A stretch of DNA of 64,000 nucleotides from Amedibacterium intestinale (lineage in GTDB: Bacteria; Bacillota_I; Bacilli_A; Erysipelotrichales; Erysipelotrichaceae), in NCBI RefSeq assembly GCF_010537335.1, contig NZ_AP019711.1, positions 1,674,001 through 1,738,000 on the forward strand, given 5' to 3'. Below are positions 16,348 to 24,882 of this stretch, one piece after another. The notes under the pieces are model-generated. The model did not search any database, had not been told where the DNA came from, and saw only the letters and a list, made by a program, of their open reading frames with translations. Position 1 is the stretch's first letter. The number at the start of each line of letters is the position of its first letter. A program made the translations under genes and the position numbers.

Positions 16348-16986
16348 TTAACCAAAGTCGTAATGCTGCCCCTTCATCATATAAATGATATGTTCGCAGA
16401 TATTTTTAATATGATCTCCTGCTCTTTCAATATTTCGTAACATACCACTTACTACAAATACATCTTCAATCAAATTTTCTCCAGATTCTTCTTTTAATCT
16501 TGCTCGTATTTCTTTTACCAGCTGATTGAGATACTGATCACGTTTTACAATTTCAAATGCACTTTCCACATTACGCTCTTCATAAGCTTTCATTGTTTCC
16601 TGCAGCATATTGATCATATATTTTTCCATCTGCTGTGCATATTCCAAGACATGAGGGAACTGCGCATCTTGTTTCAATAAGTATTTTGCTACATTTTTCG
16701 CATAATCTCCAATACGTTCCAATTCAGATGCAATTTTAATATCTGCCACAACTTTTCTTAAATCGCTTGCGACTGGAGAAAGAAGAGCCAAAGAGCGTAC
16801 TGCCTGATCGTTTACTTCTTCTTCCATGTGGTTGATGATGTCATCTGCCTGCATGATTTCAAGTTCCATTTCACGATCTGGATTTTCCAATACTTCCACT
16901 ACTTTTTCATGCATGCTAATTACCTGTCTTGCCATTTTCATGACATTGGCTTCCATTGTATCCAGTTCTTTATCAATTTTTACCAT
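16348..16986 (-). CDS. phoU: Phosphate transport system regulatory protein
   Basis: PhoU restrains Pst uptake and the phosphate sensor when phosphate is plentiful. The 212 residues form two PhoU three-helix repeats. Metal-binding segments DIKIASELERIGDYAKNVA and ERAGDHIKNICEHIIYM are in the expected places (about 82-102 and 183-205). AGGAGG is eight bases before the ATG. It lies 12 bases after pstB, as the last gene of the pst operon. Confidence 0.95.
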   Translation of the reverse strand: MVKIDKELDTMEANVMKMARQVISMHEKVVEVLENPDREMELEIMQADDIINHMEEEVNDQAVRSLALLSPVASDLRKVVADIKIASELERIGDYAKNVAKYLLKQDAQFPHVLEYAQQMEKYMINMLQETMKAYEERNVESAFEIVKRDQYLNQLVKEIRARLKEESGENLIEDVFVVSGMLRNIERAGDHIKNICEHIIYMMKGQHYDFG

Positions 16987-16998
16987 AATTTCTACCTC

Positions 16999-17757
16999 CT
17001 ATCCAAATCTACCAGTAATATAATCTTCTGTACGTTTATCCTCAGGATTTTGGAAAATCTTACTTGTATTATTAAATTCAATGACTTCCCCTAATAAGAA
17101 GAAAGCTGTATCATCACTGACACGAGATGCCTGCTGCATAGAGTGCGTTACAATTACAATCGTATAATCTTTCTTTAATTCTTCAATCAAGTCCTCTATT
17201 TTACTAGTCGCAATAGGGTCTAATGCACTTGTAGGCTCATCCATTAAGATTACTTCTGGTTCCATGGCGATTGCTCTTGCGATACATAAACGCTGCTGCT
17301 GTCCACCTGATAAACCAAAGGCACTATCGTGTAAGCGATCTTTTACTTCTTCCCATAAGGCTGCTTTTTCTAATGACTGCTGTACGATTTCATCCAGTAC
17401 TTTTTTATTTTTGATACCCTGACATTTAGGACCATAGGTAATGTTATCATAAATTGACATTGGAAATGGATTTGGTTTCTGAAATACCATACCTACCTGT
17501 GTACGCAAATCTACAACATTTAATTTATCGCTGTGAATATCCGTTCCATCAATTTCAATCGTACCTTGTATACGACATCCATCAATCAAATCGTTCATAC
17601 GATTCAAACAGCGAAGAAAGGTTGATTTCCCGCATCCACTAGGTCCAATCAATGCAGTAACTTTGTTTTTCTTAATATCCAGCGCTACATTTTTAAGTGC
17701 GTGTTTTTCTCCATAATATAAATTTAGATTATCTACATGAAAGATCGTGTTTTCCAT
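16999..17757 (-). CDS. pstB: Phosphate ABC transporter ATP-binding protein
   Basis: The ATPase subunit that drives PstSCA phosphate import at the cytoplasmic face. The 252 residues show Walker [10 protein letters not shown], the PstB-typical LNRMNDLI segment, Q-loop [13 protein letters not shown], signature LSGGQQQR, Walker B VILMDEP and switch VTHSMQQA. The start at 17757 (MENTIFHV) is preferred over 17778: AGGAGG lies eight bases before it, while the earlier ATG overlaps the pstA end. Confidence 0.97.
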
Positions 17758-17768
17758 TTGTTTTCCTC

Positions 17769-19013
17769 CTAATACCATGCCTTACTGAAACGTTTGCTTA
17801 AGTATTTTACTGTAATATTTAAAATTAGTACGAATACAAGAATAATAATTGAAATAGCACATGCCAGTTCAAAGTTTGGTTGTTCACTACTCATAATGTT
17901 ATAAATCTGAACTGCAAGAGATGTCCCCTGTGTTGTTAAAGTAGGTGCATCGTTTACATAAGTTCCCATGGTATAAATCAATGCCGCACTTTCACCAATC
18001 ACACGTCCAATACTTAACAATACCCCAGTTAAAATACCAGGAACTGCACATGGAAGAACAACTTTAAAAATCGTTTGACTTTGGTTTGCCCCTACCGATA
18101 AAGAAGCATCACGCAAAGACTGTGGAACTACAATAAGTGCTTCTTCCGTAGAGCGAATGATCGTTGGAAGAAGAATGATTGCCATCGTTAGTCCACCTAG
18201 TAAAACATTTGTAGTTTTTGCGCCAAACAATTGTGTTACTGGGAATAAAACTGTTACCCCCATCAAACCAAAGATAATACTAGGTACTCCTGTTAACATT
18301 TCAATACCACTTCGAATAATGGAAGTTAATTTATTCACTTTTGCATATTCATGCAGATAAATCGCAGCTGCAATTCCTAAAGGAAGAGCAATCAATAAAG
18401 ATACAGCAATCAGATACAAAGTTGTGATAATAGAACCGCGAACTCCTCCACCTGGTGTTTTAAAATAGACTTTTCCAATAGATACTGCCTGTGTATCCAA
18501 GGTATCTGCCAAATCTTTTGCACTTTGGCTCATAATCGCACCACCAATGCCACCAACACCATTCGCATCTGTATATGGAAGATTTTCTACCTGATACCCT
18601 ACTTCCACTTGTCGTTTATCTTTTGTTTTTACACTTTCATCGATCATTTTCAAAAAAGGAGAGTTTTTATCGATGTATTCTACAAGTATGATATCATCTT
18701 TATTTGTATCTTTTGCATCTACAAAACCAATTCCCCATTTGCTGCTGAAGAAAACATTTTCATCTAAATCTGATGGACGCTCAAAATTACCAGGTTTATT
18801 ATACGCTTCTTCTACACTTAACATATAATTGCTGGACCAGTAATTTCCCGTCAGCATTTTTAACCCCAATGTTCCAGAACCTTTGGAAAAGATAAATACA
18901 AAGATTGCCAAAAGTACGAAAACACTTAGTGCACTGGAAAGATAGGTTATGATATTTAAAACACTATCTTTTATTTTACGTTTCTTTTTCATTGTTTCAG
19001 ATGCTGCTATCAT
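17769..19013 (-). CDS. pstA: Phosphate ABC transporter permease PstA, with a large extracytoplasmic insert
   Basis: One of the two membrane subunits of the phosphate importer. The C-terminal part (about residues 195-414) is a standard PstA permease, with the cytoplasmic coupling region around [21 protein letters not shown]. The protein is 414 residues, well above the usual 280-300. The excess is a soluble insert of about 140 residues (about 50-190) between helix 1 and helix 2, containing [13 protein letters not shown] and [12 protein letters not shown]. By topology it faces outside. Its start codon overlaps the pstC stop (ATGA), which indicates translational coupling. The insert has no annotation I recognise. 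Confidence 0.93.
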
Positions 19014-19951
19014 TTCACATTCCCTACTTTCTTTTTCACAAGATTCAACAACAGATTAGAAAGCAGGATGACTGCCATCAGCACAAGACCTGCAGAGAAT
19101 CGAATATCATAATCTAAACCGGATGTTTCTTTTAAACCGGATAACATCGTTGTAGTTAAGGTACGTGTAGTATCAAATAGATTTACCGTTGGTCCAAACA
19201 TTTTATTTCCAGCTACCATCGCAACGGCAGTTGCTTCACCAAAGGCACGACCAATACCTAAGATTGCCCCTGCAAAAATTCCTGATTTTGCACTTGCCAG
19301 CACAACTTTAAAGTTTGTTTGTGTTTTTGTAGCACCTAGTGCCAGGCTTCCAAGCTCAATATCTGGATCAACAGATCGAATTGCTGTAATACTTAAAGAA
19401 GTAATTGTTGGATAAATCATAATAGCAAGTAATAAAATTACTGCTAGTAAGGAACTTCCACCAGCGGTAACATAACCAAAGCTGGCAGCTAATTTACTAA
19501 CCAATACAGTAATGGTACCAGAAGCAAATACCCCATAAACAACAGATGGAATAGATGCTAAAAGTTCGACTACTGTTGTCATGACTGCAGATACTTTTTT
19601 AGGCGCAATCTTTACAATAAACAACGCACTTAATACGGATAATGGAAAAGAAATCAACAATGCTCCAAAAGAGGAAACAAGAGTATTGATGATGATAAAT
19701 CCAACTCCATATACGCCCTGATCTTTTCTCCATAAAGTTCCAAATAGAAAATCTAAGAAATTTACTTGTCCATACTGATAATCAGGCATGAATGGAGAAA
19801 TTCCCTTCAAGCTGATAAATATGATAATTATCGCAATCGCACTGGAAGATAAAAGTGCAGCCAGCATGAACAGAAATCGCATTCGCATATCTTTCTTTAG
19901 TTTTTTCGCATTTTTTTCTGAGCTAATATACCCTCTGACATAAGTCTTCAT
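19010..19951 (-). CDS. pstC: Phosphate ABC transporter permease PstC
   Basis: Membrane subunit pairing with PstA. The 313 residues have six predicted helices, and the PstC coupling region around SVDPDIELGSLALGATKTQT and IGRAFGEATAVAMVAGN is clear. It overlaps pstA by four bases. An 80-base gap with a hairpin separates it from pstS, allowing more PstS than permease to be made. Confidence 0.95.
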   Translation of the reverse strand: MKTYVRGYISSEKNAKKLKKDMRMRFLFMLAALLSSSAIAIIIIFISLKGISPFMPDYQYGQVNFLDFLFGTLWRKDQGVYGVGFIIINTLVSSFGALLISFPLSVLSALFIVKIAPKKVSAVMTTVVELLASIPSVVYGVFASGTITVLVSKLAASFGYVTAGGSSLLAVILLLAIMIYPTITSLSITAIRSVDPDIELGSLALGATKTQTNFKVVLASAKSGIFAGAILGIGRAFGEATAVAMVAGNKMFGPTVNLFDTTRTLTTTMLSGLKETSGLDYDIRFSAGLVLMAVILLSNLLLNLVKKKVGNVK

Positions 19952-20030: not shown

Positions 20031-20966
20031 TTATTTAACATCTTCCCAGTTTGTTGTTTCCCCTTTGAAGATAGACTGTAACTGAGCCTGTGTCATATTG
20101 CTTGTTGGGTTGTCTTTCTGTACAACTGCAACAACGGCATCAATACAGTACTGTCCACTTTCCATTGCACTTGTGATATCTCCATCTTCATCTTTAAATT
20201 CACGAGAAGCAAAACCGATATCAGCAGCGTTAGGACCATCTTTTTCTCCACCAAGAACACGTTTTACAGCATCTCCACTACCTGTCTGGTTCATAACAAA
20301 TTTGAAGTTACCTGCCATTGGTGAGAATGCTTCCAATGTTGCTTTTACTGTTTTTTCTACAGAAGTAGAACCACCTGTTGTAATCGTAATTCCAGAATTA
20401 TCTTTTTCTAATACTGGATATTTTTTCGCAAGTTCTGCCCATGGAGTTGCTTTTGATAAATCAACTTCTCCACCATTTTTCTGAACGATTGTCATACCTT
20501 CTTTAGAATTCTGAATGAAGTCTAGATATGCAGCAACTAACTGTTCTTTATCTTCACTTCCAAAATCACCTTTTGCACGAGTAACGTAATTAAATGGTCT
20601 TTGTAATTTGTAAGAACCATCAAGAACTGTTTCACTAGATGCTGTTACTCCTTCATACTGTACAGCTTTTACATTGTTTTTCTCAAAATCTGTTGATAAG
20701 GATGTATATCCAATACCATTTGCATCCTGTCCAACTTTTGCGGCCATATCATCATTTGATGATACTTCTGTTGCAGATTTTGTTAATTCCTTTTCAAAAC
20801 CTACACCTTTTTCAAAAGCTTCTCTTGTACCACTTGTGGAATCACGAGTGTATACATGAATTTCCCCTTTCAATCCAGTTGCAGAAGCATCTTTTCCATC
20901 TCCGCCTGTACTTCCACATCCTGCTAACATTGCAACTACAAATAAACTAGCTAATAATTTTTTCAT
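20031..20966 (-). CDS. pstS: Phosphate-binding lipoprotein PstS, apparently circularly permuted
   Basis: The first gene of the pst operon, encoding a 311-residue lipoprotein (MLAGC lipobox, cysteine 17) that should capture phosphate outside the membrane. The two halves of the PstS fold are in swapped order. Residues 36-190 begin with RDSTSGTREAFE, then GIGYTSLS and a SYKLQRPFNYVTR strand; in ordinary PstS these follow the central linker. Residues 196-311 then give GGSTSVEKTV, QTGSGDAVK, ADIGFASRE and a C-terminal QLQSIFKGETTNWEDV; in ordinary PstS these come first. The protein ends exactly where the usual N-terminal half ends. The known phosphate-binding elements (GSTS, GSGD, SGTR) are all kept. 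AAGGAGGAGAG precedes the ATG. Confidence 0.9.
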   Translation of the reverse strand: MKKLLASLFVVAMLAGCGSTGGDGKDASATGLKGEIHVYTRDSTSGTREAFEKGVGFEKELTKSATEVSSNDDMAAKVGQDANGIGYTSLSTDFEKNNVKAVQYEGVTASSETVLDGSYKLQRPFNYVTRAKGDFGSEDKEQLVAAYLDFIQNSKEGMTIVQKNGGEVDLSKATPWAELAKKYPVLEKDNSGITITTGGSTSVEKTVKATLEAFSPMAGNFKFVMNQTGSGDAVKRVLGGEKDGPNAADIGFASREFKDEDGDITSAMESGQYCIDAVVAVVQKDNPTSNMTQAQLQSIFKGETTNWEDVK

Positions 20967-21123: not shown

Positions 21124-22293
21124 TTAATTATTTATTTTCCTAAACCAGCTGCAGCGCAGAAAAAATTTCTCACTTAACATTCCAGCACATAACATGGATG
21201 CAATAGGAACCGTTAATACAATTCCTAATGTTCCAGTAATTCCCTGCGCAAATTCAATTGTAATATAATTCGAATTCATCAGCTGCTTAACATCTACATT
21301 AAACGAAAACAAAACTAGCAAGGATACAAACGCACTTCCTGCAAATGCCAGAATTAACGTATTCGTCATGGTACCTATCATATCTTTTCCTATTTCAAGT
21401 CCAGAATGAAATAATTCCTTTGTGGTAATATCTGGCTTATGTGTACGAATTTCGAATAAAGAAGATGTAATCGACATTGCCACATCCATAATTGCACCTA
21501 AGGAAGAAATTAAAATTCCTGCAAACATAATATCTTTTATAGATAATCCTGTTTCAGCACTGATTAAAATTAAACTCTCTGCTTCTTCACTGCTAAATCC
21601 ATCGATATGCAACAAAAAAGACATAAAGTAAAAGCATAATGAACAAAGCAACACTCCACTGATCGTAGATAAAATTGCGCTATACGTTTTGATAGAATGA
21701 CCATTTAACAAAAGCAACGTGACAACTGTTGATAAGGCTATTACAAGTACAGTCATGAGCAAAGGCGGATATCCGGAAAATACAGTCGGCAATAAAACAT
21801 AAATGATGAGATACAAAGAATATGCTAATCCAATAATTGATTTCACGCCTTTTCCTTTACCTATAAAAATAACCGCAAGACATAAGATGGATATAAAAAG
21901 AATCATTCCAAATGATCGGTCATATTGATAAACGGTATAATAGGGCTCAATGTTTTCCGGCTCATCAGCATTAACTATAATTTTTGTTCCTTCCTTTACT
22001 ACTACATTATGAACAGCTGTTACATAATTGTTAATTTCTACCCTTTCCCCTTTATGCTTTCCTTCTAAAAATTCTACTTCGATATTTTGCTGACCTAAAT
22101 TTAGTTTTAATTTTTCATCATATGTTAAAGTATTACTTTTTACTTTCGTAACCTTTGCAGAAATATAATAATTTGCACTGTTATTTACTCTTGAGTATTC
22201 TTTTTTATAAAATTTATTAAATAATAAGGAGAATAACATGGTTAAAATCATTATGATTAAAACCACCTTATTCTCTTTTAACTGTTTTATCAT
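21124..22293 (-). CDS. YibE/F family membrane protein
   Basis: A 389-residue multi-pass membrane protein of the YibE/F family. One N-terminal helix (about 10-27) is followed by an extracytoplasmic beta-rich domain (to about 125), then seven or eight helices. The family segments around GALGAIMDVAMSITSSLFEI and GKDMIGTMTNTLILAFAGS are visible. Biochemical function is unknown. It starts three bases after the stop of the surface phosphatase gene, so the two are one operon. That operon stands just upstream of pstS and ends at its own terminator. Confidence 0.85.
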   Translation of the reverse strand: MIKQLKENKVVLIIMILTMLFSLLFNKFYKKEYSRVNNSANYYISAKVTKVKSNTLTYDEKLKLNLGQQNIEVEFLEGKHKGERVEINNYVTAVHNVVVKEGTKIIVNADEPENIEPYYTVYQYDRSFGMILFISILCLAVIFIGKGKGVKSIIGLAYSLYLIIYVLLPTVFSGYPPLLMTVLVIALSTVVTLLLLNGHSIKTYSAILSTISGVLLCSLCFYFMSFLLHIDGFSSEEAESLILISAETGLSIKDIMFAGILISSLGAIMDVAMSITSSLFEIRTHKPDITTKELFHSGLEIGKDMIGTMTNTLILAFAGSAFVSLLVLFSFNVDVKQLMNSNYITIEFAQGITGTLGIVLTVPIASMLCAGMLSEKFFLRCSWFRKINN

Positions 22294-22296
22294 TTA

Positions 22297-24882
22297 TTAT
22301 TTAGATTCTTTTTTATTTTTTCTCAAGACAACAGCACTGCCTAATGCTCCAACCATCATGAAAGCATAAGGAATTACATTCATTTGTACACCTGTTTTAA
22401 CATCATCTTTAGATGAAACATTCTGTGTATTCTCAGAATTTACAGGTTTTTTATCATTGTCTGACAATTGTGGTACCTCTGGCAATTGTGGTGTCTGCGT
22501 ACCTGTATCTGGTTTATTTACATCCTGTCCTTCCTGATTTCCAGATTCTGTATCCCCTGTATTACCTGTACCATTTCCATCATCTGTTGCTGCTTTTTCA
22601 TTCACAAGAACAAAACTTCCTAAATCTTTAGTTGTTACGATAATAGAAGAGCCATCTACTGTATAAGAAAGCTTATTTAGAGTGTAATTTTTTGCTGTAT
22701 CAGATAATTTATAAACACCTAAATGATTTACATCAAATCCAGCTGGAAGATCAAATTTAATTTTAATATCTCCTGTTGGTAAAATATTTATATTATTTTT
22801 TACCAATGCAATATCAATAATATTAAATTCTTTATCTTTATATTGTGATTTTACATAATCATAAACTGTTCCTTCTTTAATATCCTGAACCTGGAACTGT
22901 GCATCCTTTTCGATAGAACCAGCAGGAGCTGTAATTTCTGTTTTCACTGATGTTTCATCAGATGAAACTACAACATCTTCACTATTTACTTGTGGAGATT
23001 TTTTTACACTAAATTCATCAAGCAGTTCCCAGCTGCTGTCATTATATAAATAGGTTGACATTTTAAATTCATTGTCACTAACTTCAACATTCGAAATTGT
23101 ACGTTTTTTAGACTGATCCATTTTTGCAGCAAATGGGAAATCCATATTTGTTTTAATATCATAATACTTACTTCCACTAGCTGAGTTTGCAGTTAAATAT
23201 ACAATACCATCAGGATCTGTTACACTTTTTAAGTTTGTGGTATCCGTAACAACTTCTTGTCCTTTCATAACATGTGTACGTGTATAAACATGATCATGTC
23301 CCATTAAAACAACATCAATTCCTAATTCATCAAAAACTGGTGGAAGTTCATTTCTTCGCTGAATAATATCTCCATCTGTTGTATGACTTGCAGTTGAATA
23401 AACAGAGTGGTGGAATACTACAACTTTCCAGCGAACATCTTTATTTTTCGCAATTGCATCTTCCATAAATGCTTTGTGTTCTGCAGTGCTGGTATTATTT
23501 GAGTTAATATCCATAAACAATGTATTGTTGTAAACATACCAGTAATCTGTACCTGCTGTAGAATCTCCTAAATCTGCAGATTCATTTGGTAAATTAAAAT
23601 GCTGATTATAAGAATTTGAACTACTGTCATGATTTCCAATACTTGTTGCCTGTGGCATGCTTGAGAAAATTTCCTGATTTAAATAACCATCATATTGAGA
23701 CTCATTACTAGCTGTATTTACCTGGTCTCCAGCTGAAAGCAAGAAATTAGGATTGAATTTTTCTTTCGCATCATTTAAAGTTGCACTCCATCCTTCTGCA
23801 TCACTTTTAGCATTTCCACTGGCCCCAATCTGTGGATCTCCTGCAAAAATAAAGTTATATGATCCGTCAAAATCTTTTGTTTCAAATGTTTTAATATCAC
23901 TAGCTATATCACCATTTATAACACGATAAGCATATTTTGTGTTTTCTTTCAAATCTTTGATAGTTGCCTGATAATATCGTTTACCAGCATCATTTGATGG
24001 ATTTGTCAATGCCTTAATTGTTTTGCAATTACTAGGAATTTCTCCATTTACAAGATTCTTGTATTCTGTAACTTCTACCATTCCATCTGCATCCGTATTT
24101 GCATACCATGTAAGATTCATGCTTGTTTCATCACTGCCTACAGTAAGATTAATATCCTCTTGTATAACAGGTTCTTCCCCATACAATAACTGCATGTCAC
24201 TCATTTCAAAATAGACATCTGAACTGCTGCTTCTTCCCTGATGAATTTCAACAGAAACAATGTTTTTTCCGTTATGCAAAACATCTTTTAAATCATCCTT
24301 TGATAATTTCATATCAACTGTTTTTGGGCTACTATCATTAGAACCACCATATTCCATATTAGATGTAAAGCCACCATCAGGTTCATCATATGCAGCTACC
24401 TTATGTCCATTTATATAAATGATTGCGGCATCATCATATTTGAAATTAGCTGTTAACTCCGTTACTTCTTCTGCATTTTCAATGTTAACTTCTGTTCTAA
24501 AGAAAAATGCAGGAACATCTCCGTTATTTTTATCACCATTGATATATTGATTTAATAATACCGTAGGTGTGCATCCTCCACCTACATCATCCAACTTGCC
24601 ATTTTTAGCACCAAATTTTCCAGCTGCTTTATCCCAGCCGCTGATATCATAAGTATCTTTTGTCCACGCAAAACGATCTTCTGGTGTTCCCGGATCTACA
24701 TTGTTATCCAAATAAGACCATTGTGTATTCGCATTGATTAATTGCACTTTTTCTGTTTGTTTTGTATTTCTAGTTGCTTTTACCTTTATTGGAGTAACAG
24801 GATACGTTTGTGCTACCTGTACTGCCCCCATTGTTAACAGCAACGTTGCTGCTGATGCTTTTAAAACCTTGTTTTTATTCAT
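22297..24882 (-). CDS. Large surface metallophosphoesterase with C-terminal membrane anchor
   Basis: An 861-residue secreted protein. After the signal peptide (about 1-27) comes a galactose-binding-like domain (about 50-235), then a fibronectin-like purple acid phosphatase N-domain (about 240-335). A metallophosphatase domain (about 340-600) follows, with all motifs: FAGDPQ, SAGDQ, SIGNHDS, VFHHSVYS and MGHDHVYTRTH. The C-terminal region has a beta domain, a Gly/Pro/Thr-rich linker with repeated TPQLPEVPQLS, and then DVKTG (827-831), a hydrophobic helix (836-853) and RKNKKESK. That tail looks like a sortase-type or simple membrane anchor, although canonical LPxTG is absent. It probably releases phosphate from extracellular organic phosphates, feeding the neighbouring Pst system. 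GGAGG sits nine bases before the ATG. Confidence 0.88.
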   Translation of the reverse strand: MNKNKVLKASAATLLLTMGAVQVAQTYPVTPIKVKATRNTKQTEKVQLINANTQWSYLDNNVDPGTPEDRFAWTKDTYDISGWDKAAGKFGAKNGKLDDVGGGCTPTVLLNQYINGDKNNGDVPAFFFRTEVNIENAEEVTELTANFKYDDAAIIYINGHKVAAYDEPDGGFTSNMEYGGSNDSSPKTVDMKLSKDDLKDVLHNGKNIVSVEIHQGRSSSSDVYFEMSDMQLLYGEEPVIQEDINLTVGSDETSMNLTWYANTDADGMVEVTEYKNLVNGEIPSNCKTIKALTNPSNDAGKRYYQATIKDLKENTKYAYRVINGDIASDIKTFETKDFDGSYNFIFAGDPQIGASGNAKSDAEGWSATLNDAKEKFNPNFLLSAGDQVNTASNESQYDGYLNQEIFSSMPQATSIGNHDSSSNSYNQHFNLPNESADLGDSTAGTDYWYVYNNTLFMDINSNNTSTAEHKAFMEDAIAKNKDVRWKVVVFHHSVYSTASHTTDGDIIQRRNELPPVFDELGIDVVLMGHDHVYTRTHVMKGQEVVTDTTNLKSVTDPDGIVYLTANSASGSKYYDIKTNMDFPFAAKMDQSKKRTISNVEVSDNEFKMSTYLYNDSSWELLDEFSVKKSPQVNSEDVVVSSDETSVKTEITAPAGSIEKDAQFQVQDIKEGTVYDYVKSQYKDKEFNIIDIALVKNNINILPTGDIKIKFDLPAGFDVNHLGVYKLSDTAKNYTLNKLSYTVDGSSIIVTTKDLGSFVLVNEKAATDDGNGTGNTGDTESGNQEGQDVNKPDTGTQTPQLPEVPQLSDNDKKPVNSENTQNVSSKDDVKTGVQMNVIPYAFMMVGALGSAVVLRKNKKESK

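Follow-up and report, generated by a model that had tools for sequence, protein, structure and literature searches.

The window analysed here is a stretch of 64,000 nucleotides from the genome of Amedibacterium intestinale, and its minus strand carries at 20031-20966 a single open reading frame encoding a PstS-family lipoprotein of 311 aa whose two halves stand in swapped order. We call A the N-terminal half and B the C-terminal half of canonical PstS. Canonical PstS proteins, such as that of Bacillus, have the order A-B, opposite to the B-A order of the window protein. The genes pstC, pstA, pstB and phoU follow directly after it. The features of the locus, with the evidence for each in parentheses, are:

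20031..20966, minus strand: pstS, circularly permuted phosphate-binding lipoprotein, 311 aa, order B-A (profiles, solved chains, predicted model)
20916..20966, minus strand: signal peptide and lipobox, residues 1-17, LAGC with Cys17 (sequence)
20472..20864, minus strand: segment B, residues 35-165, counterpart of the canonical C-terminal half (TIGR02136 profile positions 163-291; second half of 4gd5/4q8r)
20394..20471, minus strand: new linker, residues 166-191, within GGEVDLSKATPWAELAKKYPVLEKDNSG (alignment and predicted model)
20034..20393, minus strand: segment A, residues 192-311, counterpart of the canonical N-terminal half (PBP_like_2 profile positions 11-125; solved chains)
19010..19951, minus strand: pstC, permease (TIGR02138, 219 bits, above the cut-off of 196)
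17769..19013, minus strand: pstA, permease, 414 aa (TIGR00974, 237 bits, above the cut-off of 193)
18453..18872, minus strand: extra PstA segment of ~115-140 residues, after the presumed first transmembrane helix and before the permease core (clade comparison)
16999..17778, minus strand: pstB, ATPase (TIGR00972, 434 bits, above the cut-off of 343)
16348..16986, minus strand: phoU (TIGR02135, 170 bits, above the cut-off of 130)

With all four partner genes above their curated cut-offs, the pst operon is intact, as a sequence-only reading of this DNA had proposed, and pst genes likewise come after almost every permuted homologue whose flanking sequence is long enough. The window PstS keeps the motifs GSTS, GSG, D-I-G-x-x-S-R and R-x-x-x-SGT, which we take to be the phosphate site of PstS. 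The site residues R41, S45-G46-T47, G199-S200 and S230 were 94-100% conserved in permuted and canonical units alike. Read most simply, the system would import phosphate in the normal way but through a binding protein whose chain is re-wired. Immediately upstream of pstS, at 21124-24882 on the minus strand, lie genes for a purple-acid-phosphatase-like metallophosphoesterase of 861 aa and a YibE/F-like membrane protein, and this region is possibly a phosphate-scavenging neighborhood. Elsewhere in the same genome (C1:1209700-1210398, minus strand; L235), a distant canonical-order PstS-like domain, scoring below the cut-off, was observed in a 406-aa frame with N-terminal hydrophobic segments, which lies just behind a frame resembling a penicillin-binding protein; the stretch seen beside it held no recognised pst genes.

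The swapped order was evident from both profiles and solved sequences. Segment B holds the SGTR motif, GIGYTSLS, QRPFNYVTR and the C-terminal helices, and segment A holds GGSTSVEK, TGSGDAV, ADIGFASRE, the IDAVV strand and LQSIFKGETTNWEDV. The PstS family profile TIGR02136 matched the window protein in two pieces of inverted order, with profile positions 163-291 falling on residues 35-165, and positions 11-125 of the Pfam profile PBP_like_2 fell on residues 194-309 (domain score 92.8 bits, above the gathering score of 27; whole-protein E value 3.9e-26). The N-terminal half of the window protein thus corresponds to the C-terminal half of canonical PstS, and vice versa. The canonical solved PstS chains 4q8r, 4gd5 and 1twy aligned with the window protein as two swapped pieces. 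The one exception was 4H1X, PstS2 of Streptococcus pneumoniae, which matched in a single collinear piece (window residues 28-311 on its residues 3-265). When a profile of 41 permuted homologues was compared with 28 solved PstS-like sequences, 4H1X was again the only one matched in one stretch (29-309). None of the profile or solved-chain comparisons gave a collinear match to a canonical binding-protein family. These results confirm that PstS has undergone natural circular permutation here, within an intact pstSCAB-phoU operon, and the motif order and positions given by the sequence-only reading were right. The whole-protein TIGR02136 score of the window PstS was 128.4 bits, under the curated cut-off of 206.6; six permuted single-unit homologues scored 120-199 bits and one canonical homologue passed with 242. 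Since none of the permuted single-unit proteins that were scored reached the PstS cut-off of NCBIfam, permuted PstS may be under-named in annotation.

The predicted structure agreed with this topology. An AlphaFold2 model built with the 41 permuted homologues reached a pLDDT of 92.6 and a pTM of 0.85, and its best structural matches were PstS chains. Foldseek placed 4H1X first (E 6e-25, TM 0.87), with the next protein at E 4e-6 and the canonical 4q8r at E 1e-4 and TM 0.34. By VIA-align, the model superposed on the 4H1X crystal structure over 249 residues at 1.9 Å with the same chain topology (Z 30.1), versus Z of at most 11 over ~132 residues, one half of the protein, for canonical phosphate-binding proteins. 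The model thus bears out a normal two-lobe PstS fold with permuted topology. The placement of the new ends at the hinge region, proposed earlier, probably does not hold. In the window protein the new ends separate the end of A (TNWEDV) from the start of B (GEIHVYTR), and both of these motifs should lie in lobe II. The long strands 270-283 and 122-129, expected to cross the hinge, are internal in the model, which argues that the ends are not at the hinge. From motif positions, secondary structure and established PstS anatomy, the new termini are probably inside lobe II, between '..IFKGETTNWEDV' and 'GEIHVYTRDSTSGTR'. The former ends are joined by the linker, which runs from the canonical C-terminus to the canonical N-terminus as two short helices predicted with high confidence and is conserved in the clade of the window protein. 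Motif positions and PstS anatomy also indicate that the lipid anchor would shift from lobe I to lobe II, in keeping with the earlier expectation that permutation changes which lobe is tethered. Cys17 was invariant across the 41 permuted homologues, and a lipobox regular expression matched 90 of 97 permuted open reading frames.

To describe the distribution of the permuted order, we counted full-length permuted matches in one frame, tallied by hand from the listings for sampled genomes; group names beyond the named loci were inferred from the named locus used as the center of each survey. Looked for in family relatives, the same order was present in 10 of the 25 genomes of a first survey and in 25 of 41 family members within a larger survey of the phylum, where about 81 of 392 sampled genomes had it. 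The other family of the order had it in none of the 16 genomes listed, 14 of which gave only canonical-order matches. Permuted matches were found in 56 of 246 Lactobacillales genomes (a longer spacer was seen in another five, of which two were checked), in 56 of 291 genomes of the sampled Clostridia class and in 6 of 149 genomes of the Spirochaetota, the phylum of a Treponema genome; permuted PstS was also found in Fibrobacter. All 66 top loci with full-length matches in the Lactobacillales, Clostridia and Spirochaetota surveys were B-A, and both PstS orders co-occur in some genomes. The repetition of the order in the first family survey, together with full-length single-frame copies in dozens more genomes, argues against chance or an assembly fault.

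The clade of the window protein and the 4H1X/PstS2 clade might have acquired the permutation separately, which would give at least two origins with an identical cut. The permuted groups stand apart on our careful tree with canonical proteins between them, and the linkers of the two clades differ in both length and sequence. However, a single permuted clade was not rejected by the AU test on that tree (p 0.22) or on a larger set (p 0.65), for which the likelihood was higher with one clade, and the cut site is identical in both clades. We therefore treat two origins as possible but lean toward one.

Several relatives carry forms that bear on how the order arises. According to the duplication model of circular permutation, fused intermediates are to be expected (PMC3320104). 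A fused A-B-A-B protein was found in an Oscillospiraceae MAG (L108), and fused B-A-B-A lipoproteins of 590-680 aa were found in six Acholeplasma-type genomes (L092, L098, L099, L215, L216 and L217). The copies within the fused doubles share 81-98% DNA identity, several with long blocks of 100% identity and a divergent end, a pattern that suggests gene conversion or recent duplication. It was also observed that several B-A-B-A doubles are near-identical between copies except at the end of the first copy. The careful tree requires at least three separate events for the B-A-B-A form. An AlphaFold2 model of one B-A-B-A protein was poor (pLDDT 53). L215 sits on a 1.88-Mb contig, and MAG contigs are the source of L107 and of at least three of the B-A-B-A proteins.

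Two further loci depart from the B-A order. The protein of L107 (231-1196, plus strand) has the order A-B and matches TIGR02136 in one collinear stretch, yet it is nested in the permuted clade (100/98 for an eight-row group and 100/100 for a 31-row group), still has the permuted linker, now forming a tail at its C-terminus, and is accompanied by the long PstA of the clade. It is best read as a return to the canonical order by trimming of a B-A-B-A parent. In the same genus as L215, the protein of L219 (1846-2790, minus strand) starts in the last helices of B, ahead of A, and ends with 'RPFMFVTRY'; it has its own signal peptide and pstC lies 8 bp downstream, and from its sequence we take it to be permuted at a second cut site. 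The founding duplication behind the first B-A protein was not seen in the sampled relatives, the only A-B-A-B protein found being one MAG open reading frame from another lineage with recent copies. Whether PstS permutation is both repeatable and reversible, with duplication, fusion and trimming leading through A-B, A-B-A-B, B-A, B-A-B-A, a return and a second cut, is to us an evenly balanced question. If it is true, the steps of a permutation could be ordered on a tree and tested one by one, with all the forms in living relatives.

Taken as a whole, we consider it highly probable that the window gene encodes a permuted binding lipoprotein of a PstSCAB importer, an account in which we infer binding, transport and origin. 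The chain would run from the signal peptide and lipid anchor through segment B and the clade-specific linker to segment A. Phosphate would be bound in the same cleft and handed to PstC/PstA as usual, with lobe II, not lobe I, carrying the tether. As for the origin of the order, a canonical pstS would have been duplicated in tandem and fused into A-B-A-B, and B-A would have been left once the outer A and B were lost. A process of the same kind would be ongoing in the relatives, where it would account for the fused B-A-B-A proteins, for one protein that went back to A-B and for one new cut.

Most likely the shift of the tether was tolerated or neutral, not something that selection favored. If the permuted order had been selected, anchoring through lobe II would change how PstS docks or waits near PstC/PstA, and it would have co-evolved in the clade of the window protein with the extra PstA segment. 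In that clade, including the B-A-B-A loci, L107 and L219, ~160-200 residues precede the PstA core (more in two loci), versus ~25-110 residues in canonical loci and in most of the 4H1X type, leaving out apparent PstC-PstA fusions. L218, which either lies close to the base of the clade or falls outside it, is an exception in this comparison. Every locus of the clade with a readable PstA has the long form, the B-A-B-A, reverted and new-cut loci among them. The segment is conserved; no Pfam or PDB relatives of it were found. From its place after the first transmembrane helix, it presumably faces outward, on the extracytoplasmic side, and it is a possible docking partner. The authors of work on TpMglB-2, a permuted sugar-binding protein, suggested anchoring as one reason for its permutation (PMC4990184). 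However, L107 keeps the insert with the order A-B and 4H1X-type permutants lack the insert, so insert and permutation are separable, with no one-to-one tie. Moreover, the anchor is followed by a flexible stretch of ~17 residues (low pLDDT at residues 19-27), behind which the tether point should matter little. Selection of the permuted order thus appears unlikely to us. In three loci (L115, L124 and L139), ORFs of ~600 aa replace separate PstC and PstA beside a permuted PstS, and their sequences suggest fused permeases.

It is very improbable that the halves were once separate genes that became fused in a new order. A MAG locus (L070:871-1857, plus strand) does have B and A in adjacent open frames, but these are in phase with one stop codon between them, more like a nonsense change or a sequencing error. 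We rank this fission and fusion scheme low because no free-standing halves were found in the surveyed genomes; fused doubles of both orders were found. For the L070 stop codon itself, nonsense change, sequencing error and recoding are all candidates. We can practically dismiss the possibilities that the protein is an ordinary, collinear member of some other binding-protein family and that its order is an assembly artefact: Foldseek does list OpuAC collinearly at a TM of about 0.45, but at 9 Å rmsd, and with a Z of 9.6 at 4.8 Å versus 30 at 1.9 Å for permuted PstS, while the window genome is one contig and the order is common to many independent genomes.

The idea of a natural permutant stood, then, but the topology is not unprecedented, since it has been in the PDB as 4H1X since 2012 (the collinear, Z 30.1 match). 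That protein, S. pneumoniae PstS2 (SP_2084), shares the B-A order, the cut site, the two-lobe fold and a place in a pst operon with the window PstS; it differs in its shorter linker and in belonging to another clade, at ~30-35% identity, and the long PstA is absent from the operons of its relatives. The title of the deposit does not mention the permutation, nor do Zheng et al. (2016), who called the pneumococcal Pst1 and Pst2 systems 'evolutionarily distinct' (PMC4913102). No papers on permuted PstS or citing 4H1X were found in the open-licence PMC literature; a negative of that scope is weak evidence of novelty. This seems to be a widespread topological variant, so far left undiscussed, of a binding protein that ranks among the most thoroughly studied. 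The living series of orders amounts to a natural experiment on the origin and reversal of protein topologies, and it bears on whether the tethered lobe matters for an ABC importer.

Among canonical proteins, PBP-1 of Clostridium perfringens (4GD5/4Q8R), of the TIGR02136 type, has homologous halves, the same ligand-site motifs and the same presumed role, but its order is A-B, its termini are in lobe I and it aligns with the window protein one half at a time (Z 11). Treponema pallidum TpMglB-2 (Tp0684), termed 'Type Ic', is likewise a natural permutant and a tethered binding protein of an ABC importer, with Gram-positive relatives (PMC4990184); unlike the window PstS, it has a sugar-binding Type I fold and another cut, and would represent an independent event. 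CPSARST grouped glycine betaine-binding (OpuAC, 2B4L) and molybdate-binding proteins as a circular-permutation family (PMC2395249). That pair joins distant proteins with different ligands, whereas in PstS it is homologues of one protein that differ in order.
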